Virus record (IMG/VR): IMGVR_UViG_3300010885_005498
Span: 1-32,600 of that record
From: a virus
Reading direction: 5' to 3' (one strand)
Length of the DNA: 32,600 bases
Below are positions 3,607 to 30,964 of the stretch, piece by piece. The first letter of the stretch is position 1. Every line of letters begins with the position of its first letter. The notes under the pieces were generated by a model. That model was not told the DNA's origin. It was given only the letters and a program-made list of their open reading frames with translations, and made no database searches. A program made the translations under genes and the position numbers.

Positions 3607-3635
3607 TTTACATTTGAATGTGGTCGCTGTATAAT
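3607..3635 (+). promoter_or_regulatory. Sigma70-type promoter TTTACA-N17-TATAAT
   Basis: TTTACA at 3607-3612 and a perfect TATAAT at 3630-3635 are separated by 17 bases, the clearest consensus promoter in the window. Transcription would start near 3642 and drive the gene at 3675 and probably the recombination genes after it. Confidence 0.75.
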
Positions 3636-3677
3636 TGAGTTATCAAGTTAAACAAAACCCTGAGGAGGGAAATCATG
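3621..3677 (+). repeat. Promoter-leader cassette, copy A
   Basis: From tggtcgctgta through the ATG at 3675, this stretch is nearly identical to 14468-14521. Both contain ttatcaagttaaac and the ccctgaggaggga motif (3658-3670 here). Copy A has an intact TATAAT at its left end; in copy B that hexamer reads TAGGGT. The downstream proteins are unrelated, so the regulatory unit was copied without its gene. Confidence 0.75.
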
Positions 3678-5995: not shown

Positions 5996-6243
5996 AGCGT
6001 GATCATTGGCGTGAAGATGCGTTGTGTTTAGGACTAGATTCAAAAGTTTTCTTTCCTGAATACAACGCATTTGAATCTCGTTGGGATGCAGCCAAAACAA
6101 TTTGTGCGTGCTGTCCTGTACGCAAGCAATGTTTGGATTTAGTTATCGGGTTAGATGAGGACTGTGATCGTTGGGGAGTGTTCGGTGGTATGACACCAGC
6201 ACAACGCAGAGTTTATCGTGACGAATTAAGGAGAAGCAAATGA
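5992..6243 (+). CDS. WhiB-like [4Fe-4S] transcription regulator
   Basis: WhiB proteins are actinobacterial iron-sulfur partners of the main sigma factor. The four cluster ligands are C12, C38, C41 and C47 (ICACCPVRKQC), with an FFP motif at 20-22 and the WGVFGGMT turn followed by a basic AQRR segment. The conserved N-terminal W (residue 6) lies upstream of the first TTG at 6022, so the start must be earlier. The only candidates after the in-frame stop at 5980 are CTG at 5992 and ATT at 5989. CTG has GAGGA at 5981-5985 and a four-base CTGA overlap with the previous stop. The product is 83 residues. It could redirect host transcription or regulate phage promoters. Confidence 0.8.
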   Translation: MKRDHWREDALCLGLDSKVFFPEYNAFESRWDAAKTICACCPVRKQCLDLVIGLDEDCDRWGVFGGMTPAQRRVYRDELRRSK

Positions 6244-6338
6244 AATCTATCGGGCAGCCGTTGGCTGATTGTGATTGTGTGATACAAAAAATTGTTAAAG
6301 AAACTAGATGTGGAAAAACGGAGGACGATGATGAATAA
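6240..6338 (+). CDS. Very small acidic protein
   Basis: A 32-residue open frame from an ATG that overlaps the whiB stop (ATGA) with AAGGAGAAG just upstream. It has three cysteines (CDC and RC) and ends in an acidic run (TEDDDE). I do not recognise it. The ribosome site and both overlaps (with whiB and with the methyltransferase start) argue that it is translated, at least to couple the two neighbours. Confidence 0.4.
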   Translation: MKSIGQPLADCDCVIQKIVKETRCGKTEDDDE

Positions 6339-6957
6339 AAAACTTAAAGTATTAAATCTGTATGCAGGCATCGGTGGGAATCGTAAACTTTGGGGAACAG
6401 ATTGCGAAGTAACTGCTGTTGAATATGATGAAAATATTGCAAAGGTTTATGAAGATTATTTTTCAACAGACAAAGTTGTGGTTGCTGATGCTCACGAATA
6501 CTTACTTAATCACTTTGCTGAGTTTGATTTTATTTGGTCATCACCACCATGTCAAAGTCATAGCAGCTTTAGACAAAACATTGGTGTTCGTTTTCGTGGA
6601 GTAAAACCTATTTATCCTGACATGAACTTGTGGCAAGAAATAGTTTTTTTGCAATACAACTTTACTGGTGAATGGGTAGTTGAAAATGTTAAACCGTATT
6701 ACACGCCTTTCATATCGCCAACCATTGCATTGCAGCGACATTATTTTTGGTCTAACTTGCAGATTCCAAATATGCAATTTAAAAAAGATTTGCTTAGATC
6801 AGCGCAAATACCACAACTTGAGGAACTACATGGTTACGACTTAAGTAAATATAAATTGCCTAATAAGCGACAGGTTCTACGCAACTGTGTTGCACCAGAA
6901 GTTGGTCTATATGTTTTTCAACAAGTAACTAAAACAAAGGAGAATAATAATGAGTAG
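6331..6957 (+). CDS. DNA (cytosine-5) methyltransferase
   Basis: The 208-residue protein has the C5-methyltransferase motifs: motif I LNLYAGIGG (residues 8-16), motif IV PPCQ with catalytic C74, motif VI ENV (118-120) and a late motif RQVLRNCVAPEVG near the C-terminus that stands in for motifs IX-X. The target-recognition region is very short, so the whole protein is about two thirds of the usual length and may have relaxed specificity. The ATG at 6331 has GGAGG six bases upstream; ATG 6328 is possible. No cognate restriction gene is present, so it probably protects or pre-modifies phage DNA, possibly for the glycosyltransferase at 13125. Confidence 0.8.
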   Translation: MNKKLKVLNLYAGIGGNRKLWGTDCEVTAVEYDENIAKVYEDYFSTDKVVVADAHEYLLNHFAEFDFIWSSPPCQSHSSFRQNIGVRFRGVKPIYPDMNLWQEIVFLQYNFTGEWVVENVKPYYTPFISPTIALQRHYFWSNLQIPNMQFKKDLLRSAQIPQLEELHGYDLSKYKLPNKRQVLRNCVAPEVGLYVFQQVTKTKENNNE

Positions 6958-9334: not shown

Positions 9335-9347
9335 CCCTGAGGAGGGA
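9335..9347 (+). promoter_or_regulatory. Conserved leader/ribosome site ccctgaggaggga, copy 4
   Basis: The motif ends three bases before the ATG at 9351. It heads the long run of small unknown genes. Copies 1 and 2 are at 2623 and 2851, copy 3 within the repeat at 3621 and copy 5 within the repeat at 14468. Confidence 0.65.
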
Positions 9348-9350
9348 ATT

Positions 9351-9791
9351 ATGAAAACAGCAAGATTTAAGCAGCCAACAAAGGTTGGTATAGCACGCAC
9401 ACTTAATGATGCGTGGTGCACCAAAGCAGGTTGGAACCCATCCAGCATGGTACGGGGATATGGATCAGTCACTTCTGGTTGGGTGTCTACACAGTTAGAA
9501 AACGGTGATTTCAAAATTGAATACAAGGTTTCAATGGGAACTTACAACGGCGTAGACAATGTCGGTTTAACTGACGAGGAAAGAATAGAACGCCACGAAC
9601 GCTGCACAAAAAACTTTATCAACCAGTTGGAGACTTACACAAAAGTTTTAATCGCAAAAGGCTACAACGCATACTCTTTTACAAAAATGGTTGATTCAAA
9701 GATTGCTTCTGGAGATTTTAGCAACAGGACTTACAAGCCTTGCCAAGATGTTGAAGGTTTCGTAACAGTAAAAAACGAGGAGACAAAATGA
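9351..9791 (+). CDS. Protein of unknown function
   Basis: A 146-residue protein heading the small-gene block, started by an ATG after the conserved leader. It has a glycine/serine-rich beta-like N-terminal half (SSMVRGYGSVTSGWVSTQLE) and a helical C-terminal half with RIERHERCTKNFINQLETYT. Two cysteines occur in the helical half. No family is recognised. It overlaps the next gene by four bases (ATGA). Confidence 0.55.
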   Translation: MKTARFKQPTKVGIARTLNDAWCTKAGWNPSSMVRGYGSVTSGWVSTQLENGDFKIEYKVSMGTYNGVDNVGLTDEERIERHERCTKNFINQLETYTKVLIAKGYNAYSFTKMVDSKIASGDFSNRTYKPCQDVEGFVTVKNEETK

Positions 9792-10321
9792 AACTGTTAG
9801 CAGCTAAAGAGTGGAACAAAATGTTTTACGAGAACGGACAGAAGTACCGAATCCAAGTCAGATCAGAGTTGGTGTATCGTGACGGAAACAGCAACGCATA
9901 TTTCTCTATCGGTGGAGACATCTTTAGACACGCAAAGAACGGAAGGAAAGTTTGGGAGATGGGTGGTTGCATCCACGAGGAGATCGTTAAACACTTCCCA
10001 CAACTTCAACCACTTGTTGATATGCACTTGGCTGACGAGGATGGTGTGCCTATGCACGCTTACGCAAATGCAGCCTATTGGGCAGGACACACAAGATGGG
10101 AAAAGGACAGCGACACCCTCGCCAAACATTTACGGGTCACTAAAGATCAAGCCAACGAAATGACAACATACATAAACCACCACTACGGTGAGTTTGACAA
10201 AATCACAACAGCCGAAAACGCTTGGAAAAATACTTGCCAAGACTTTGATTTGCCAGACGGTTGGTTAAAACAAGCACTAGAGGCAAGGGCAATGCTAAAC
10301 CAGATGGAGGCAGCACAATGA
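9788..10321 (+). CDS. Conserved phage protein of unknown function
   Basis: The 177-residue protein overlaps both neighbours by four bases. The N-terminal half reads like a beta sheet (YFSIGGDIFRHAKNG), followed by the striking segment HEEIVKHFPQLQPLVDMHLA then DGVPMHAYANAAYWAG. I recall this 'HxEIxxxFPxLxPLVxxHLxDxxGVPMHAxAN' block from other actinophage and environmental phage proteins, where no function is assigned. The clustered histidines and acidic residues could bind a metal. The C-terminal part is helical. Confidence 0.65.
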   Translation: MKLLAAKEWNKMFYENGQKYRIQVRSELVYRDGNSNAYFSIGGDIFRHAKNGRKVWEMGGCIHEEIVKHFPQLQPLVDMHLADEDGVPMHAYANAAYWAGHTRWEKDSDTLAKHLRVTKDQANEMTTYINHHYGEFDKITTAENAWKNTCQDFDLPDGWLKQALEARAMLNQMEAAQ

Positions 10322-10488
10322 ATTATCCGATCTACGAAATTAACGGTGTAAAAACATATCGGACACCAAGACATTTACGCACACTTAGAGATGTCGCTTG
10401 TCGGTCTTGCGCAAAACCAGTATCAATGGAAACTAAAGTTTGCGAAAGTTGTGGTTACCAATTCCAAACAGAGGAGAACAGCAAATGA
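10318..10488 (+). CDS. Small zinc-ribbon protein
   Basis: A 56-residue protein starting at the ATG overlapping the previous stop (ATGA). Cysteine pairs CRSC and CESC, 17 residues apart, make a classical zinc ribbon (ACRSCAKPVSMETKVCESCG). The last codons contain agaggagaacagcaaatg, the ribosome site and start of the next gene. The role is unknown; ribbon proteins of this size often contact nucleic acid or other proteins. Confidence 0.6.
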   Translation: MNYPIYEINGVKTYRTPRHLRTLRDVACRSCAKPVSMETKVCESCGYQFQTEENSK

Positions 10489-10871
10489 ATTGTAAAAACT
10501 GTGAGCATGAACTAACAGCAGTTGCAGAGATGGATGAGTATGAACTTTGCCATCACTGTTACTGCAAAATAATGGATACAACAAACAACAACAGAGGAGA
10601 ACAGCAAATGAAAATCACAAACCAAACAGTAGAAAACATTGAGTTAATCACTACAGGCGAAACAGCCTTGTTTGAAATTAACTTAGTGATTGCAATGGAA
10701 ATGTACGATTCAGAAACTGATGAAGGTGCGCTTAGTTGGCTTACCAATCTGCTTACGCTTGCAGCTGCAGGACACGACATCAAATCAGGCGCACAAGAGT
10801 TTATGCGTTGTGCGATAACCTTAAACGAAAGCCAAGTTCACCTATGCAAAGTAGAACGGGTCACAGCATGA
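10485..10871 (+). CDS. Zinc-ribbon/acidic-domain fusion with internal start
   Basis: The full frame encodes 128 residues. Residues 1-28 are a zinc ribbon (CKNC...CHHC). Residues 42 onward are a distinct acidic, helical domain (ELITTGETALFEINLVIAME). Between them the DNA repeats agaggagaacagcaaatg, the ribosome site and ATG that begin this gene, and places ATG 10608 in frame. So the gene may make both a long protein and an 87-residue C-terminal protein, or it may be a recent fusion of two genes. No family is recognised for either half. Confidence 0.55.
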   Translation: MNCKNCEHELTAVAEMDEYELCHHCYCKIMDTTNNNRGEQQMKITNQTVENIELITTGETALFEINLVIAMEMYDSETDEGALSWLTNLLTLAAAGHDIKSGAQEFMRCAITLNESQVHLCKVERVTA

Positions 10872-11122
10872 AACAATCACCGTTTGACAAATGGCTTACA
10901 ACACAAGATGAGCAGCCAATGCACTTCGTATTTAATACCCCTAACGACGATTACGATTGGTCGGTAGATTATTCTGTTATTGACGGGTTATGTGCAAATT
11001 GCGACACTGCGATAGGCATTGACTCTAACGGTGGGAGGTCAACAAATTATTGGCAAATAGATATTAATGAAGAACAAATTTTGTGCGATGAGTGTTTTAA
11101 CAAAACAGGAGAAACAGCATGA
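10868..11122 (+). CDS. Small cysteine-pair protein
   Basis: An 84-residue acidic protein whose ATG overlaps the preceding stop. It has CANC and CDEC pairs separated by about 28 residues (GLCANCDTAIGIDSNGG, then ILCDECF), so it likely binds one zinc. The N-terminus is rich in aromatic and acidic residues (NDDYDWSVDYSVIDG). Not recognised; it belongs to the run of zinc-ribbon genes here. Confidence 0.5.
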   Translation: MKQSPFDKWLTTQDEQPMHFVFNTPNDDYDWSVDYSVIDGLCANCDTAIGIDSNGGRSTNYWQIDINEEQILCDECFNKTGETA

Positions 11123-11298
11123 ACCCATTTATAGACAACCCTCCATTGGTAGTTTTTGTCTCTATGACAATCGGACTTTACGCAGGCAAATATATTGGAA
11201 TCATTGATGGCAGACAGCGTGAACAAAAAGCCCAAGCAGCACGCAACCGTATCCAAAAAGAACTGCGTTGGGAACGCCAAAACCGTAAGGTAAAGTAA
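11119..11298 (+). CDS. Small membrane protein
   Basis: A 59-residue protein, ATG overlapping the previous stop and AGGAG upstream. Residues about 9-29 form one transmembrane helix (PLVVFVSMTIGLYAGKYIGI), followed by a strongly basic cytoplasmic helix (RQREQKAQAARNRIQKELRW). By the positive-inside rule the C-terminus is in the cytoplasm. It could be a superinfection-exclusion or membrane-docking protein, which is a guess from layout. It is the last gene before the tRNA-like element. Confidence 0.5.
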   Translation: MNPFIDNPPLVVFVSMTIGLYAGKYIGIIDGRQREQKAQAARNRIQKELRWERQNRKVK

Positions 11299-11304
11299 GA
11301 GCGC

Positions 11305-11380
11305 ACCAATGGCAAGCAGCGCAACCCCACTTCACCCTCCTCGGTTAGAGGGTTAGCCCACCTGCGATGGTGGCATTGGT
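11305..11380 (+). ncRNA. tRNA-like cloverleaf, not a canonical tRNA
   Basis: ACCAATG at 11305-11311 pairs with CATTGGT at 11374-11380 (7 bp). Directly inside the 3' strand is a perfect hairpin CCACC/GGTGG (11358-11362 with 11369-11373), in the T-arm position. ACCCTC/GAGGGT (11334-11339 with 11348-11353) lies in the anticodon-arm position, with a 4-5 base variable region between them. The D-arm position shows only a weak AAG/CTT. The TTC of the T-loop, GG of the D-loop and T8 are missing, and the middle loop has eight bases. It fills the only real gap in this gene block. Confidence 0.45.
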
Positions 11381-11400
11381 ACTAGATATGGAGAACACTT

Positions 11401-11535
11401 ATGACTGTGAAAGATTTAGAAGCTGCTGTAGCGTTTCTACGCAAGATAACAGTAGGACAAATGGAAGTGGACTTATTAGTTCAAACCGTAGAAGCATTAG
11501 AAACAGAAATTAAGAAAAGGAGAACTAAAAAATGA
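11401..11535 (+). CDS. Very small helical protein
   Basis: A 44-residue frame beginning at the ATG after GGAG (11390-11393). It is a single amphipathic helix pair (KDLEAAVAFLRKITVGQMEV, DLLVQTVEALETEIKK) with a basic tail RRTKK. The stop overlaps the next ATG by four bases. Helical layout and coupling support a real gene; function unknown. It lies directly downstream of the cloverleaf element and might be controlled by it. Confidence 0.45.
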   Translation: MTVKDLEAAVAFLRKITVGQMEVDLLVQTVEALETEIKKRRTKK

Positions 11536-11747
11536 GTGAATCAACAGCAGCTGAATTAGCACATTGGCAGGCACGATGCGATGAAATGCAAGTAGCGTTA
11601 GAGCGTGTTCGTGAGGAACGAGATGATTTGCGCACTAACAACGATGCGCTTACCATTGCCTACGCCAAGATCGCTAACGAAGTTACACAACTGCGATCTG
11701 TCGTAAGTCGTATTCAAGTAGCAATGTCACAGGGTCAAGAACTCTGA
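11532..11747 (+). CDS. Small coiled-coil protein
   Basis: A 71-residue protein that is almost entirely a heptad coiled coil (AHWQARCDEMQVALERVREE, then RDDLRTNNDALTIAYAKIAN). It starts in the stop of the previous gene and ends in TGATG shared with the next. It resembles 6950 in type but not clearly in sequence. A structural or adaptor role is likely; nothing more can be said. Confidence 0.5.
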   Translation: MSESTAAELAHWQARCDEMQVALERVREERDDLRTNNDALTIAYAKIANEVTQLRSVVSRIQVAMSQGQEL

Positions 11748-11965
11748 TGGAACTATTTGATTTAGAACCAAAGTTCATAACCATTCTCGCTGATGATGAC
11801 GGATACAGCAGATGGAAAGTTACATTACGCAACTTTGATACAGGCGATAAACCGATTGATCTGCTTGTAATGATGGATGCTGATGGTGGAATGGCGTTAG
11901 CAACACGCCCACCACACGATACTTCTTGCACTTGGTCTCCACCAGTATTCCCTGCAAGATCATGA
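11747..11965 (+). CDS. Small protein of unknown function
   Basis: A 72-residue acidic protein with a probable beta-sheet core (KFITILADDDGYSRWKVTLR, then DLLVMMDADGGMALATRPP). There are no cysteine pairs, apart from one C, and no membrane segment. Its ATG shares the last base of the previous stop, and its end overlaps the next start by four bases. Unrecognised. Confidence 0.45.
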   Translation: MELFDLEPKFITILADDDGYSRWKVTLRNFDTGDKPIDLLVMMDADGGMALATRPPHDTSCTWSPPVFPARS

Positions 11966-12123
11966 AAGTTGTTTGCAACAAATGTCAAGCAACAGTTGAA
12001 TGGAATCCTGAACAGACTGTTGGCTGCCTATGCGACAGCGATTCCCCAACATGGATTTGCATCACCCGAACAAAACAATTCGTACACATGAGTCACGCTA
12101 ACTACACAACAGAGGAAAACTAA
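11962..12123 (+). CDS. Small zinc-binding protein
   Basis: A 53-residue protein from the ATG overlapping the previous stop. CNKC near the N-terminus and CLCD about 25 residues on, with a further C in WICI, would hold one zinc (VVCNKCQATVEWNPEQTVG). It is another member of the small zinc-ribbon group; role unknown. Confidence 0.45.
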   Translation: MKVVCNKCQATVEWNPEQTVGCLCDSDSPTWICITRTKQFVHMSHANYTTEEN

Positions 12124-12125
12124 CG

Positions 12126-12359
12126 ATGAGTCACAGAATAGAAGTTGTAATTGATGAACAAGTAGTAGATGCAATTTATTACTGTTCCGATGCTTGCGCT
12201 AAAACAGATAAAAACTATGAAGGGTGGAATGGTTGCAACGATGTATATCAACCTGAAACTTGTGTATGTGGCGAGCGTCTTGGCTGGTATCGCTGGAATT
12301 ACGAAACTAAAAATCAAGAGTATGTTGATTCAAAAGATAAAAATTGGGGGATACTTTAA
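12126..12359 (+). CDS. Small cysteine-rich protein
   Basis: A 77-residue protein with five cysteines (YYCSDACAKT, NGCNDV, CVCGERLGW), fitting a zinc knuckle of the kind seen in small phage proteins. The middle WNGCNDVYQPETCVCGERLG resembles rubredoxin-like or treble-clef knuckles only loosely. Its TAA overlaps the ATG of the ParB-domain gene. Not recognised. Confidence 0.45.
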   Translation: MSHRIEVVIDEQVVDAIYYCSDACAKTDKNYEGWNGCNDVYQPETCVCGERLGWYRWNYETKNQEYVDSKDKNWGIL

Positions 12360-13138
12360 TGAGCGCAATAGAAACAGAAACGATTGATATTGATACGGTG
12401 CATCCACATCCACGCAATGTCCGACAAGGAGACATCGGTGCTATCAGTCAATCATTAAAAGCGCATGGACAATACAGACCGATCACATACCAAAAATCTA
12501 CGGGCAGAATCCTTGCAGGCAACCACACTTGGAAAGCAGCCAAGGCATTAGGTTGGACAAAAATTGTTGCATCAGCAAAAGTTTGTGATGACGATGAAGC
12601 AATAAGAATCCTGATAGCAGACAACCGAACGAGCGATCTAGCAGACTATGACGATGCAGGATTAGCAGAACTATTAAAAGAACTAGCCGATACGACTACA
12701 GGACTAGAAGGAACACTATTTGACGGTGATGCTTTAGATCAGCTGCTAAACGATCTCGGCGAATACACACCAGCAGACGATATAGAAAACATATACAGCC
12801 AAGCAGTAAAAGTTCCACAATACGAAATCGTTGGTGATGAACCAAAACTTAAAGAACTATTTAATAATGATCGCACACAACAACTACAAAAAGAAATTAA
12901 CCAATCAAACATCCCAGACGATATAAAACAATTCTTAGTAACAGCATCAATGAGGCACACAGTATTTGATTACTCAAAAATCGCTGAGTTCTACCCTCAT
13001 CAAACACCTGAAATACAAAAACTGATGGAACAATCGGTACTAATAATCATTGACGCTAACGATGCCATCGCTAACGGATATGCAGTATTCGCACAAACCA
13101 TTGACGAACTAGAACAACTGGATAATGAAGATGCGTGA
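12359..13138 (+). CDS. ParB/Srx-domain protein linked to DNA modification
   Basis: The 259-residue protein begins with a ParB N-terminal fold: HPHPRNVRQGDIGAISQSLK, then GQYRPI, then GRILAGNHTWKAAKALGW (residues 15-67). A helical middle and a C-terminal domain follow (VPQYEIVGDEPKLKELF through ASMRHTVFDYSKIAEFY to LIIIDANDAI). I recall the same N- and C-terminal pairing in uncultured phages, next to glycosyltransferases like the following gene. ParB-fold proteins bind or cut DNA and often sit in base-modification loci. Here it may select sites or partner the glycosyltransferase. It overlaps the next gene by 14 bases. Confidence 0.7.
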   Translation: MSAIETETIDIDTVHPHPRNVRQGDIGAISQSLKAHGQYRPITYQKSTGRILAGNHTWKAAKALGWTKIVASAKVCDDDEAIRILIADNRTSDLADYDDAGLAELLKELADTTTGLEGTLFDGDALDQLLNDLGEYTPADDIENIYSQAVKVPQYEIVGDEPKLKELFNNDRTQQLQKEINQSNIPDDIKQFLVTASMRHTVFDYSKIAEFYPHQTPEIQKLMEQSVLIIIDANDAIANGYAVFAQTIDELEQLDNEDA

Positions 13139-14006
13139 TAAGAAAAACTTTGCTGTATTCATCCTCACACACGGCAGACCAAACGAAGTAGTCACCTACA
13201 CGACCCTGCGCAAGCGTGGATACACAGGAAAAATCTATATCATCATTGACAACGAGGACAAAACAGCAGATCAATACAGAGCCAAGTTTGGTAAAGAAGT
13301 AATCCAATTTGATAAAGCTGCTATCGGAGAAACATTTGACATAGCAGACACAGGCAAAGATAGACGAGCAACAGTATTTGCAAGGAACGCATCATTTGAA
13401 ATAGCCCGTGATCTAGGGCTTGACTACTTCATGCAACTAGACGATGACTACACAACATTCGGCTATCGCTTCGTTAAAGATGACGCACTTAAATACACCC
13501 AAATAAAATCAATGGATTTAGTCCTAGAAGCAATGATCACCTTCTTAGAGGACACAGGATCACTAACATTCGCTATGTCACAAGGAGGTGATTGGATTGG
13601 TGGTGCAAGCGATAAGAAACCAAAGAAACCATTGTTCCGTAAGGCCATGAACTCATTTATATTCCGAACCGATAAACCAACCACCTTTATCGGGCGAATG
13701 AATGACGATGTAAACACCTACATTATGAACGGCATACGAGGCGAGCTGCTATTCACTACCACGAAACTTATGCTGACCCAACCAGTAACACAAGGTGGGT
13801 CAGGTGGAATGACAGAGATGTACCTAGACACAGGAACATATATGAAATCCATGTACACAGTAATGATGGCACCATCCTGCGTAACAGTACGCAACATGGG
13901 AACAACACACAAACGATTACATCACTCAGTTAAATGGAACAACACCGTACCCAAGATCATCAGCGACAAACACCGTAAACCATGCCCATTAAACGACCCT
14001 GCCTAA
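13125..14006 (+). CDS. TET-associated-type (TAGT/GREB1-like) DNA glycosyltransferase, probable
   Basis: The 293-residue protein looks like a GT-A glycosyltransferase of the TAGT/GREB1 group described from DNA hypermodification loci. Its hallmarks are FAVFILTHGRPN (residues 9-20), GYTGKIYIIIDNEDK (32-46), RRATVFARNASF (80-91) and the metal-binding YFMQLDDDYT (101-110, with the DxD acids at 106-108). These enzymes are known or proposed to add sugars to hydroxylated bases in phage DNA. No TET/JBP dioxygenase or hydroxymethylating enzyme is visible here, so the acceptor is unclear. It overlaps both the ParB and HNH genes. Confidence 0.7.
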   Translation: MKMRDKKNFAVFILTHGRPNEVVTYTTLRKRGYTGKIYIIIDNEDKTADQYRAKFGKEVIQFDKAAIGETFDIADTGKDRRATVFARNASFEIARDLGLDYFMQLDDDYTTFGYRFVKDDALKYTQIKSMDLVLEAMITFLEDTGSLTFAMSQGGDWIGGASDKKPKKPLFRKAMNSFIFRTDKPTTFIGRMNDDVNTYIMNGIRGELLFTTTKLMLTQPVTQGGSGGMTEMYLDTGTYMKSMYTVMMAPSCVTVRNMGTTHKRLHHSVKWNNTVPKIISDKHRKPCPLNDPA

Positions 14007-14293
14007 CCTGTCGCACACTTACTACGAACACACCACGATGCGACACCTGCCAAGCAACATGGAACAGAGCGCACCCTAAACCAGATAGACCACACTACAA
14101 AGGCGAATATAAACGCAAAGCAAAACACATACGAGACACAGCCATCGCCTGCTGGATATGTGGACAAGGTAAGCGACCTAATGACCCATTTACAGCCGAT
14201 CACCTAATACCAGCCGACCCCTACAGCCCACTAGCAGCTGCTCATAGATCATGCAACAGCCGTAGAGGCAACAAGCCAATACAACCCCAATAA
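13982..14293 (+). CDS. HNH endonuclease
   Basis: The 103-residue protein has an N-terminal zinc site (CLTC...CDTC), a basic linker and an HNH core: CWICGQG (C57, C60), TADHLIPADP (D73-H74, the catalytic pair) and HRSCNSRRGN (H88, C91, N92). Free-standing HNH proteins of this size lie next to terminase genes in many HK97-like phages and assist DNA packaging. The terminase follows about 850 bases downstream, so that role is plausible. It overlaps the glycosyltransferase by 25 bases. The C-rich gap 14294-14450 after it shows no gene. Confidence 0.8.
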   Translation: MPIKRPCLTCRTLTTNTPRCDTCQATWNRAHPKPDRPHYKGEYKRKAKHIRDTAIACWICGQGKRPNDPFTADHLIPADPYSPLAAAHRSCNSRRGNKPIQPQ

Positions 14294-14467: not shown

Positions 14468-14521
14468 TGGTCGCTGTAGGGTTGGGTTATCAAGTTAAAC
14501 ACCCTGAGGAGGGAAATTATG
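14468..14521 (+). repeat. Promoter-leader cassette, copy B
   Basis: This stretch repeats 3621-3677 with a three-base deletion and a few changes, including the ccctgaggaggga motif at 14502-14514. The hexamer matching TATAAT of copy A reads TAGGGT (14477-14482), with TTGGCT at 14453-14458 as a possible -35 (18-base spacing). This copy is probably a weaker promoter, or needs an activator such as the WhiB protein. Confidence 0.7.
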
Positions 14522-15147: not shown

Positions 15148-15627
15148 ATGGGTGGTAAAGGTAGTGGTGGCAGTAATCGGAAACCAGTAGAACGCAAACT
15201 GCGTATCGGTAATCCGTCAGGCAGGAAACTTCCTGCTGTCACAAAGTCGGCAGACATTATTGCGTTACCCAATAACCATGTGCCTGAACCTCATCGCCCG
15301 ATTGGTGAAGGTGGTAGAAGGCTTTGGAATCAAGTTTGGCAATCAGGTGCAGGTTGGCTTAAACAGAACATGGATACAGAACTTATTTTAATGTTGTGTG
15401 AAGCAACAGAGGAAAGAACAAGGCTGCGTATTATGTTGCAGGCAGATCAATCTTTGTGGCGTGAACGGCGTGCGTTGCGTGAAGTAGATCGGCAAATCAT
15501 TACACTATTAGGGCAGATAGGTTTTAGTCCATCAGAGCGAGGGTTGTTAGGAACAGGTGAAACAACAAAGCATGAGTTCAGCGATCTCAACAAAAGGATT
15601 GCCGAAAAGCGTTCATCCAGCCGATAA
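15148..15627 (+). CDS. terS: Terminase small subunit
   Basis: The 159-residue protein starts at ATG 15148 (GGKGSGGSNRKP), since the frame upstream runs through the terminator hairpin. The basic N-terminus and the helical core (GRRLWNQVWQSGAGWLKQNM, then MLCEATEERTRLRIML) match P27-type small terminases, which recognise the packaging site and hand DNA to the large subunit. The late signature, LREVDRQIITLLGQIGFSPS, also fits this family. It overlaps the large subunit gene by 56 bases. The ribosome site is weak (AGAAAGA). Confidence 0.8.
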   Translation: MGGKGSGGSNRKPVERKLRIGNPSGRKLPAVTKSADIIALPNNHVPEPHRPIGEGGRRLWNQVWQSGAGWLKQNMDTELILMLCEATEERTRLRIMLQADQSLWRERRALREVDRQIITLLGQIGFSPSERGLLGTGETTKHEFSDLNKRIAEKRSSSR

Positions 15628-17077
15628 GTGGAAACCAGCGTTTTATACAGAACGCAAAAACAAATCATCCGATGGCGATGAGATTATAAGTTTTGCTCAA
15701 AATTATTTTAATGTGCTTAAAGGCTTTCGGTCAGGTGAACCTTTAGTTTTTACTAACTGGCAGAAGTGGCTGCTTCGCTCTTTGTATGAGCGTAACGATG
15801 TAACAGGCAGGTTGCGTTATCGCCGTGCGCTAATCGGTTTGCCACGCAAGCAAGGCAAGTCTTTAATGATGTCTGCTGTTGGTGTGTATGGCATGATCGC
15901 TGGTGAATCAGGTTCAGAAGTTTATGCAGTAGCAAACGATAGACAGCAAGCACGAATTATTTTTAATGAAGCAAAACAACAAATAGTTAACAGCCCATTA
16001 CTAGCTGCCGAATCTAAGGTGTATCGGGATGCGATTGAGATGCCACGCTTCGGTTCTGTATTCCGTGTGTTGTCATCAGACTTTAAAGGTCAAGCAGGTT
16101 TAAACCCGTCACTAGTTTTGTTTGATGAACTATGGGGGCAAAACAATAGTGATCTTTACGATCAGATGACTTTAGGTTCTGGCGCACGCATAGAACCATT
16201 AACAGTAAGTATTACTACTGCAGGCTATGACTTAGATTCGTTAGCAGGAAAGTTGTATCAGTATGGGAAACAAGTTGCGTCAGGTGAAGTTGATGACGAT
16301 CAGTTTGGTTTTTGGTGGTGGGAAGCACCAGAGGATTGCAAAGTGGATGATCGGAAGGCGTGGCAGGTTTCTAATCCGAACTTGGCTGAAGGATTACTTG
16401 ACCCAGAGGATTTGGCTGTTGCAGTAAAACAAACTTCAGAGATGGGTATGCGTAGATGGAGATTAAACCAATGGGTACGCTCGCAAGAATCGTGGTTGCC
16501 TGTAGGTGCTTGGGAACAATGTGTATCCGATTTACAGTTTGACCCTGAACTTCCTGTTTGGGTTGGAATTGATATGGCGTTAAAGCACGACACGATTGCT
16601 GTCTGTGTGGCTCAACCACAATTAGATCGGTGTGTTGTGCGCTCAAAGATTTGGCAGCCTGAACTAGAAGGTGTTGATGTTGTTGATGTGGAACATTATT
16701 TGCGTGAACTACACAACCAGTTTCAGGTACAGGAGTTTGCTTTTGACCCTGCTTACTTTCAACGGAGCGCAGAAGCATTATCTGATGACGGGCTGCCGAT
16801 GGTTGAGTTTCCACAGTCGGGGTCACGAATGATTCCTGCTTGTGGTAACGCCTACGAAATGATTGTGAACCGAAAGATTGCTCACGATGGTTCACCAACC
16901 TTTACAGATCAAGTGCTGTCTGCTGCACAAAGAATGACAGACACAGGCTGGCGTTTATCTAAAGGCAAATCTAAGCGAAAGATTGATGCTTGTATTGCTA
17001 TGGTTATAGCGTTAGATCGTGCAACAACAAAACCCGTTACACCAACCTCGGCAACAGTATTGGATATTTGGTCATGA
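15572..17077 (+). CDS. terL: Terminase large subunit
   Basis: The 501-residue protein packages DNA into proheads. The ATPase domain has an atypical Walker A, GLPRKQGKS (residues 89-97), Walker B LVLFDELW (about 182-188, D185-E186) and coupling motif SITTAG (about 213-218). The RNase H-like nuclease domain begins at VGIDMALKHDT (D334) and ends near KIDACIAMVIALD. This is the Terminase_1 family typical of HK97-like siphoviruses. ATG 15572 is chosen; GTG 15557 would add five residues. The stop overlaps the next ATG by four bases. Confidence 0.9.
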   Translation: MSSAISTKGLPKSVHPADKWKPAFYTERKNKSSDGDEIISFAQNYFNVLKGFRSGEPLVFTNWQKWLLRSLYERNDVTGRLRYRRALIGLPRKQGKSLMMSAVGVYGMIAGESGSEVYAVANDRQQARIIFNEAKQQIVNSPLLAAESKVYRDAIEMPRFGSVFRVLSSDFKGQAGLNPSLVLFDELWGQNNSDLYDQMTLGSGARIEPLTVSITTAGYDLDSLAGKLYQYGKQVASGEVDDDQFGFWWWEAPEDCKVDDRKAWQVSNPNLAEGLLDPEDLAVAVKQTSEMGMRRWRLNQWVRSQESWLPVGAWEQCVSDLQFDPELPVWVGIDMALKHDTIAVCVAQPQLDRCVVRSKIWQPELEGVDVVDVEHYLRELHNQFQVQEFAFDPAYFQRSAEALSDDGLPMVEFPQSGSRMIPACGNAYEMIVNRKIAHDGSPTFTDQVLSAAQRMTDTGWRLSKGKSKRKIDACIAMVIALDRATTKPVTPTSATVLDIWS

Positions 17078-30072: not shown

Positions 30073-30290
30073 GCGCAACATATTTTGCACAGATAGATGA
30101 GAATAATAAAGTGACTGCTGTTGCTGTGACATCGGCAGAGTTTATGGCAGAAAACCCTGAACGCTATGAAGGCACTTGGGTAGAAACTTTTTTTGATCGT
30201 GTAGACAAACGATACGCAGGTATTGGTTTCATCTATGACCCTGTAAAAAAAGATTTTATAGAACCAACTTATCCACCTATTGTCAGGTGA
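30069..30290 (+). CDS. Small tail-fibre-associated protein
   Basis: The start is taken at GTG 30069, which gives a four-base overlap (GTGA) with the adhesin stop. The 73-residue product (SATYFAQIDENNKVTAVAVT, later WVETFFDRVDKRYAGIGFIY, then DPVKKDFIEPTYPP) belongs to a small family placed after fibre genes in many environmental phages. It may assist fibre folding or sit on the fibre. Also overlaps the sulfotransferase start by four bases. Confidence 0.6.
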   Translation: MSATYFAQIDENNKVTAVAVTSAEFMAENPERYEGTWVETFFDRVDKRYAGIGFIYDPVKKDFIEPTYPPIVR

Positions 30291-30964
30291 AACTTCACTT
30301 TGTGAGTGGGCTGCCTCGTAGTGGTAGCACTCTATTAACAACGCTGCTATATCAAAACCCGTTGATACACACAGAAGGTTTATCGGCTTTGTGCGATGTG
30401 ATGTGGCAAACACACCAATCACTAAGTAACGCACAATCTATATCTGCTAATCATCGCCAAGCGCACGCACATAAAATGGTTGCTGATTTGCCTTATCGCT
30501 ATTACAGCAATGTAACTAGACCTGTCGTAATAGATAAATGTCGTGCGTGGACTGCACCCGATAATGTGCAAATGCTTAAACATTATGTGACACCACAACC
30601 AAAGATCGTTGTGCTGACTCGTGAGCCTGCCGACATCATCGCATCATTCAAATCGTTATTTGAACGCAACGGTAGAGATGATTTTGATACATCGGGAATG
30701 GCTGACGAGTTCAATCGCAATATGCTTTCAACACAAATGGCAAAAGATGCTAATGATCCTGAAACATTTTTGTTTGTTGAGTTTGAAAACTTGATTAGCA
30801 ACACCCAAAGCGAAATGAATCGCATCTATGAGTTCTTAAACATTGAACCTTACTTACATGACTTGGCTAATATCGTGACTATGAATCCCGAAAATGACTC
30901 TGTGTATGGGCTGCAAGGTATGCACGATGTTCGGCGCACGATAGGCAAACGAGATGAGGTCTAG
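30287..30964 (+). CDS. PAPS-dependent sulfotransferase
   Basis: The 225-residue protein starts at GTG 30287. It carries the 5'-phosphosulfate loop SGLPRSGSTLL (residues 7-17) and the 3'-phosphate motif LTREPADIIASFKSL (110-124, R112 and S120), which together bind the donor PAPS. The catalytic-base region is probably around HTE/H60. Such auxiliary genes transfer sulfate to a sugar, lipid or protein; the target is unknown. Its place between the adhesin and an exported PA14 protein suggests a surface glycan or one of those proteins. It overlaps the next gene by 11 bases. Confidence 0.8.
   Translation: MKLHFVSGLPRSGSTLLTTLLYQNPLIHTEGLSALCDVMWQTHQSLSNAQSISANHRQAHAHKMVADLPYRYYSNVTRPVVIDKCRAWTAPDNVQMLKHYVTPQPKIVVLTREPADIIASFKSLFERNGRDDFDTSGMADEFNRNMLSTQMAKDANDPETFLFVEFENLISNTQSEMNRIYEFLNIEPYLHDLANIVTMNPENDSVYGLQGMHDVRRTIGKRDEV

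Follow-up and report, generated by a model that had tools for sequence, protein, structure and literature searches.

How a TAGT-type glycosyltransferase could modify phage DNA when the enzyme expected to prepare its acceptor is missing is the question raised by a gene pair in the window, the 32,600-nucleotide stretch (32.6 kb) analysed here from the IMG/VR virus record IMGVR_UViG_3300010885_005498. The textbook TET route requires an oxidising enzyme, and the TAGTs, reportedly first defined by Iyer in 2013, are coupled in this virus to a ParB-domain protein instead. The relevant features of the window are the following.

12359..13138, + strand: ParB-CTD adaptor gene, 259 aa; matches PF02195 (ParB_N) with E 3.8e-7 and PHROG 620 ('ParB-like') with 2.9e-39
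12365..12760, + strand: ParB_N module (ParB/sulfiredoxin fold); AF2 model similar to the N domains of CTP-type ParBs, for example 7bnr (E 1.6e-7)
12773..13135, + strand: CTD, the TAGT-specific helical C-terminal domain, without Pfam match
13125..14006, + strand: TAGT glycosyltransferase (GT-A), 293 aa; matches PF20691 with E 1.1e-37 and PHROG 842 with 1.3e-67
13440..13448, + strand: DDD, a DxD-type metal/nucleotide-sugar motif, TAGT residues 106-108
13982..14293, + strand: HNH endonuclease gene overlapping the end of the TAGT gene; phrog_338, 1.5e-5
15151-15627, + strand: terminase small subunit; phrog_83, 4e-8
15557-17077, + strand: terminase large subunit; phrog_9, 2.6e-121
6331..6957, + strand: short C5-cytosine methyltransferase, not a conserved partner; PF00145, 6.1e-9, profile positions 2-80

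The pairing of a ParB-domain protein with a TAGT-type glycosyltransferase, proposed earlier in a sequence-only reading, is borne out at 12359-13138 and 13125-14006, where the two reading frames share 14 nt. The overlap shrinks to 8 nt with the ATG at 13131 as TAGT start, the position used by most relatives in the alignment and probably the true one. The match of the TAGT to PF20691 covers 200 of 205 profile positions and scores 130.5 bits against a curated cut-off of 27.5. That reading had also placed the 13125 product among the GT-A enzymes, and structure prediction agrees: the AF2 model has a mean pLDDT of 93, and its top PDB matches in Foldseek are GT-A enzymes, the best being ColGalT1, PcManGT, AvpGT and GalNAc-transferases. 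Across 108 aligned homologues D106 of the DDD motif is nearly invariant, D107 and D108 are invariant, and many further residues are invariant or nearly so. Given this conservation and the GT-A fold, the TAGT should be an intact, active enzyme.

In the window the ParB-CTD and TAGT genes are followed by the HNH gene and then the terminase genes; the cassette lies directly upstream of the terminases here, and terminases are found downstream in most of 59 loci. A WhiB-type regulator at 6022-6243 points to an actinobacterial host. Repeats of CCCTGAGGAGGGA precede gene starts at 2622-2634, 2850-2862, 3658-3677, 9335-9347 and 14502-14521 and resemble the start-associated sequences of actinophages; two of the copies are preceded by a further 34-nt repeat (3621-3654 and 14468-14501, 88% identical). 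Among the tail-end genes, the product of 30287-30964 is P-loop/sulfotransferase-like by reading, its sole match being the phage family of unknown function phrog_27463 (1e-56).

In six-frame profile searches the TET/JBP family (PF12851) was found in none of 60 cassette records, the window included, as the sequence-only reading had noted for this virus. Other 2-oxoglutarate oxygenase families gave the same result: 2OG-FeII_Oxy_6 (PF20515) was found in none of 25 records, two controls among them, 2OG-FeII_Oxy_3 (PF13640) in none of 26, and the window was negative for both. An identical TET search does pick up the divergent TET of mycobacteriophage Nigel, and a TET hidden elsewhere was accordingly rejected. 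A Pfam search of those early genes of unknown function that were tested in the window returned no oxygenase. A hydroxymethylase of the thymidylate synthase (TS) type (PF00303), which might have supplied the acceptor, was likewise rejected: none occurs in the window and only one of 25 cassette records has it, the sole carrier being the 191-kb Vibrio phage pv27, whose cassette has the CTD without ParB_N. As the window record is a linear, unclosed virus contig, for which a near-complete genome is plausible but not certain, the claim that TET is absent rests on the complete genomes of relatives. Six TET-negative records deposited as complete genomes have the full cassette, namely Lactobacillus phages c5 (31.8 kb) and jlb1, Nocardia phage NTR1, halovirus HHTV-2, Vibrio phage pv27 and Porphyromonas phage005b. 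That a TET gene merely lies in the missing part of an incomplete contig, as the unclosed record would allow, is very improbable in view of these genomes, the 60 negative records and the sensitivity shown on Nigel.

The C5-methyltransferase at 6331, which the sequence-only reading had included in the system, is very short (about 207 aa), with motif I, PCQ, ENV and an N-(C/A)-V-x-P-like motif X readable. Its family occurs in just three of 25 cassette records, so it is not a general partner and was rejected as such. Nor was the suggestion of a dioxygenase among the genes at 9351-12359 upheld, those genes lying outside the conserved cassette. Across the records the conserved unit is a self-contained two-gene ParB/CTD-TAGT cassette; the earlier suspicion of a new hypermodification route survives in this form, while its depiction as the TET pathway minus one gene does not.

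The second constant element of the cassette is the CTD, a domain of about 120 aa that is helical in the AF2 model, with R, H, Y, E and D among its conserved residues. It has no Pfam match, none of the evident PDB matches extended over it, and assignment to a known fold was therefore rejected. The CTD was detected in 28 of 50,697 phage records, all 28 of which also have a TAGT; among 80 IMG/VR loci with the CTD, a TAGT is present in 79, the exception being a contig that ends 21 nt past the CTD. Conversely, in nearly all loci found through the TAGT the CTD either immediately precedes it or is separated from it by one gene, and a ParB-CTD homologue lies directly 5' of the TAGT in nearly all of more than 120 loci from many phyla. 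The ParB_N half has a different distribution, being found in 373 phage records, mostly actinophages without a TAGT. These phyletic patterns show that the CTD is obligately linked to the TAGT; co-evolution of CTD and TAGT distances is weak (r 0.34, partial 0.24) and was not used as evidence. Lactobacillus phage Ld17 (L036), with a shortened TAGT and no CTD detected upstream, is a natural loss variant. In a Pseudomonadota genome (L173:1285-2839), a different TAGT subfamily adjoins a ParB_N gene with no recognisable CTD.

Several cassettes have accreted accessory genes. NDP-sugar epimerase/dehydratase types and UDP-galactopyranose mutase occur beside or inside some of them, and a histidine-phosphatase/cytidylyltransferase fusion lies between CTD and TAGT at L059, L064, L071, L076, L077, L083, L084, L088, L101, L106, L114 and L115, hinting at an unusual CDP- or similarly activated donor. 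Two or three tandem TAGTs stand behind a single CTD at L124, L126, L129, L158 and L159 and could build oligosaccharides. The accessory genes and multiple TAGTs fit the transfer of varied sugars, perhaps as chains. None of the extra sugar-nucleotide genes was recognised in the window, so the donor there would be a host nucleotide-sugar. A radical SAM gene is found beside the cassette at 12 loci (L035, L120, L129, L134, L139, L142, L219, L221, L236, L246, L250 and L263) and represents a possible sugar- or base-modifying step.

Such genes bear on the view that the classical route persists in disguise, with an unrecognised phage or host enzyme hydroxylating the base before the TAGT glycosylates it. 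Candidates for that enzyme are the radical SAM proteins, a novel oxygenase, the CTD with the conserved residues named above, or, in the window, where a C5-methyltransferase is present, an enzyme acting on 5mC. The methyltransferase is nonetheless confined to three of 25 records, none of the 2OG oxygenase families searched was found, the complete 32-kb genome of Lactobacillus phage c5 lacks all of these, and the CTD is small and helical, with one candidate ligand, H76, that is not invariant. We regard this alternative as unlikely; it is compatible with glycosylation of DNA by the cassette and would specify its missing step.

The associations of ParB_N outside the cassette point towards DNA as the target. 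Related ParB_N domains are fused to an N6/N4 DNA methyltransferase in Phlop, encoded by a gene overlapping a TET/JBP gene in Nigel, encoded by a gene overlapping a DpdA-type gene (an identity taken from the record annotation) that is followed by QueC, QueD and QueE in Sour, and in tandem with PAPS reductase in Phlyer and Salgado; such pairs frequently adjoin the terminase. Nigel gene 2 (L163:776-1744), which overlaps the ParB-like gene 1, is annotated as a queuine tRNA-ribosyltransferase. Its sole Pfam match is Tet_JBP (4e-6, below the curated cut-off), and genes 1 and 2 appear to form a ParB-TET pair. A ParB_N domain is also contained in a type II methyltransferase model of PADLOC, which the window protein matches at 2e-14 and the E. 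coli copy at 2e-38; as PADLOC matched ParB_N alone, and to type II methyltransferases, a reading of the cassette as a defence system was rejected. ParBc domains adjoining phage cytosine-modification genes have been noted before (Nat Commun 2025, PMC12783734). The cassette shares with these systems the related ParB_N and overlapping or neighbouring genes, often beside the terminase, and differs from them in having a glycosyltransferase as partner and a dedicated CTD as the link. It therefore belongs with the loci in which ParB_N adjoins or is fused to a modifying enzyme, and by analogy the TAGT may be predicted to modify DNA itself. The GERRxR nucleotide-binding box of CTPase ParBs is absent (GNHTWKA in the window, AGhxRxxAA in the family consensus), and sequence-specific loading of the ParB_N is for this reason a guess.

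A further line of evidence comes from cassettes lacking ParB_N, in which the CTD stands alone within replication modules (clamp, polymerase, primase or helicase) and not beside the terminase. Among 139 non-redundant loci, with clamp genes confirmed by Pfam, a sliding-clamp gene adjoins 11 of the 18 ParB_N-less cassettes and none of the 121 with ParB_N. An N-terminal LF peptide (e.g. MIQKTLF, VKQSELF, MALF, MKQLF) is present in 13 of 17 ParB_N-less CTD proteins against 125 of 1,905 control ORFs; the bacterial clamp-binding motif QxxLF has LF as its core. These CTD proteins are thus predicted to contact the sliding clamp through LF. A functional analogy is offered by the T4 alpha-glucosyltransferase, which binds the T4 clamp gp45 (2026 T4 glucosyltransferase paper, PMC13216743); it is an unrelated enzyme of GT-B fold that acts on hydroxymethylcytosine, whereas the clamp contact of the cassette as a clamp-directed DNA glycosyltransferase is only predicted. 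On the TAGT tree ParB_N changes about 11 times and the clamp neighbour 6 times, with three to four concordant and no discordant independent ParB_N/clamp pairs, too few for significance, and the clamp association appears to be only partly independent of descent.

The main rival to a role in DNA modification has the TAGT acting on a protein acceptor, be it terminase, capsid, a host factor or ParB-CTD itself, with ParB as a regulatory or targeting partner. The small complete genomes without TET, TS or C5-methyltransferase offer no base hydroxyl, the fold neighbours of the TAGT include protein glycosyltransferases (ColGalT1, GalNAc-Ts), terminase genes usually adjoin the cassette, and human GREB1 has been linked to protein glycosylation. 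Yet the partners of ParB_N elsewhere are DNA-modifying enzymes, the ParB_N-less cassettes neighbour replication genes (clamp, polymerase, primase or helicase) and not the terminase, and the best-studied phage TAGT, that of T6, acts on DNA (PMC13216743). Protein glycosylation as the function of the cassette is in our judgement unlikely.

On balance, we consider it probable that the pair is a DNA-glycosylation cassette that operates without TET and is delivered by ParB_N or the clamp. This reading builds on the fold and intact motifs of the TAGT, its linkage to the CTD, the absence of TET and TS and usually of a C5-methyltransferase, the DNA-modification associations of ParB_N, the clamp association and the sugar-nucleotide genes. 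The TAGT would move a sugar from a nucleotide-sugar onto phage DNA, with the CTD binding or activating it and ParB_N guiding the two to DNA, most likely at defined sites; where a phage lacks ParB_N, binding to the sliding clamp would replace this role. The donor would by default be host UDP-glucose or similar, or, where the genes are present, a sugar from the phage epimerase, mutase or cytidylyltransferase. The sugar may go onto a base that has not first been oxidised, or the hydroxyl may come from an activity not yet recognised, and the modification may serve in counter-defence. Against glycosylation of DNA stands the fact that no hydroxylated base is evident as the sugar attachment point, and all TAGTs that to our knowledge act on DNA use a hydroxyl. 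The literature searched yielded no nucleoside analysis for a cassette phage and no report on the DNA chemistry of HHTV-2 or of the Lactobacillus phages. A bolder form of the proposal, which we consider less likely than not, is a post-replicative system in which the CTD-TAGT unit puts sugar directly on an unoxidised base, with exchangeable delivery (ParB_N or clamp) and exchangeable sugars, spread through bacterial and archaeal phages as well as prophages of E. coli.

The cassette is widely distributed: it occurs on at least 570 stretches in IMG/VR and at 44 loci in a collection of species-level genomes, the latter from Bacillota, Bacteroidota, Pseudomonadota, Actinomycetota, Spirochaetota, Verrucomicrobiota and other phyla; halovirus HHTV-2 represents the archaeal viruses. 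Of 5,426 complete E. coli genomes, 992 carry the TAGT gene (at least 80% of its length in 867), on Rac-type prophages with the order trkG-ParB-TAGT-terS-terL in the copies read. The Rac prophage of E. coli K-12 (ynaK/ydaY) retains only a ParB_N stub: ynaK is the truncated ParB_N of the cassette, the DNA beside it shows 99.7% identity as far as the breakpoint, and neither CTD nor TAGT is detectable. Spread by plasmids was rejected, there being no TAGT match in 72,556 plasmids.

Among known systems, the TET/JBP-TAGT pathway has in common with the cassette the glycosyltransferase family PF20691, the GT-A fold and the DxD-type motif; the cassette differs in lacking TET, in having no conserved C5-methyltransferase and in its obligate CTD-ParB partner. 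The T6 beta-glucosyl-HMC-alpha-glucosyltransferase (T-even TAGT) is a PF20691 member acting on phage DNA, as is proposed for the cassette TAGT, but its acceptor is a glucose already attached to hydroxymethylcytosine, a base that a TS-type hydroxymethylase produces, and TS is absent from 24 of 25 cassette records. PMC13216743 reports a TAGT without alpha- or beta-GT in 288 of 753 phage genomes, solitary TAGTs which very likely include the cassette enzymes; the ParB/CTD partner, the clamp variant and the sugar-nucleotide genes are not mentioned in its available part. The TAGT family, the ParB-modification theme and solitary TAGTs were already known. The literature searched, outside which the TAGT-defining paper lies, yielded no mention of the obligate CTD partner, of an exchange between ParB_N and clamp or of the sugar-gene variants.

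Orphan TAGTs thereby gain a defined partner, a predicted route to DNA and a list of candidate sugars, with complete Lactobacillus phages and the Rac-type prophages of E. coli as tractable systems. The cassette is found in many unrelated bacterial and archaeal viruses and in prophages of roughly one complete E. coli genome in six. If the proposal is correct, phages would possess a TET-independent form of DNA glycosylation that probably helps them escape restriction or CRISPR and might be used to label DNA.
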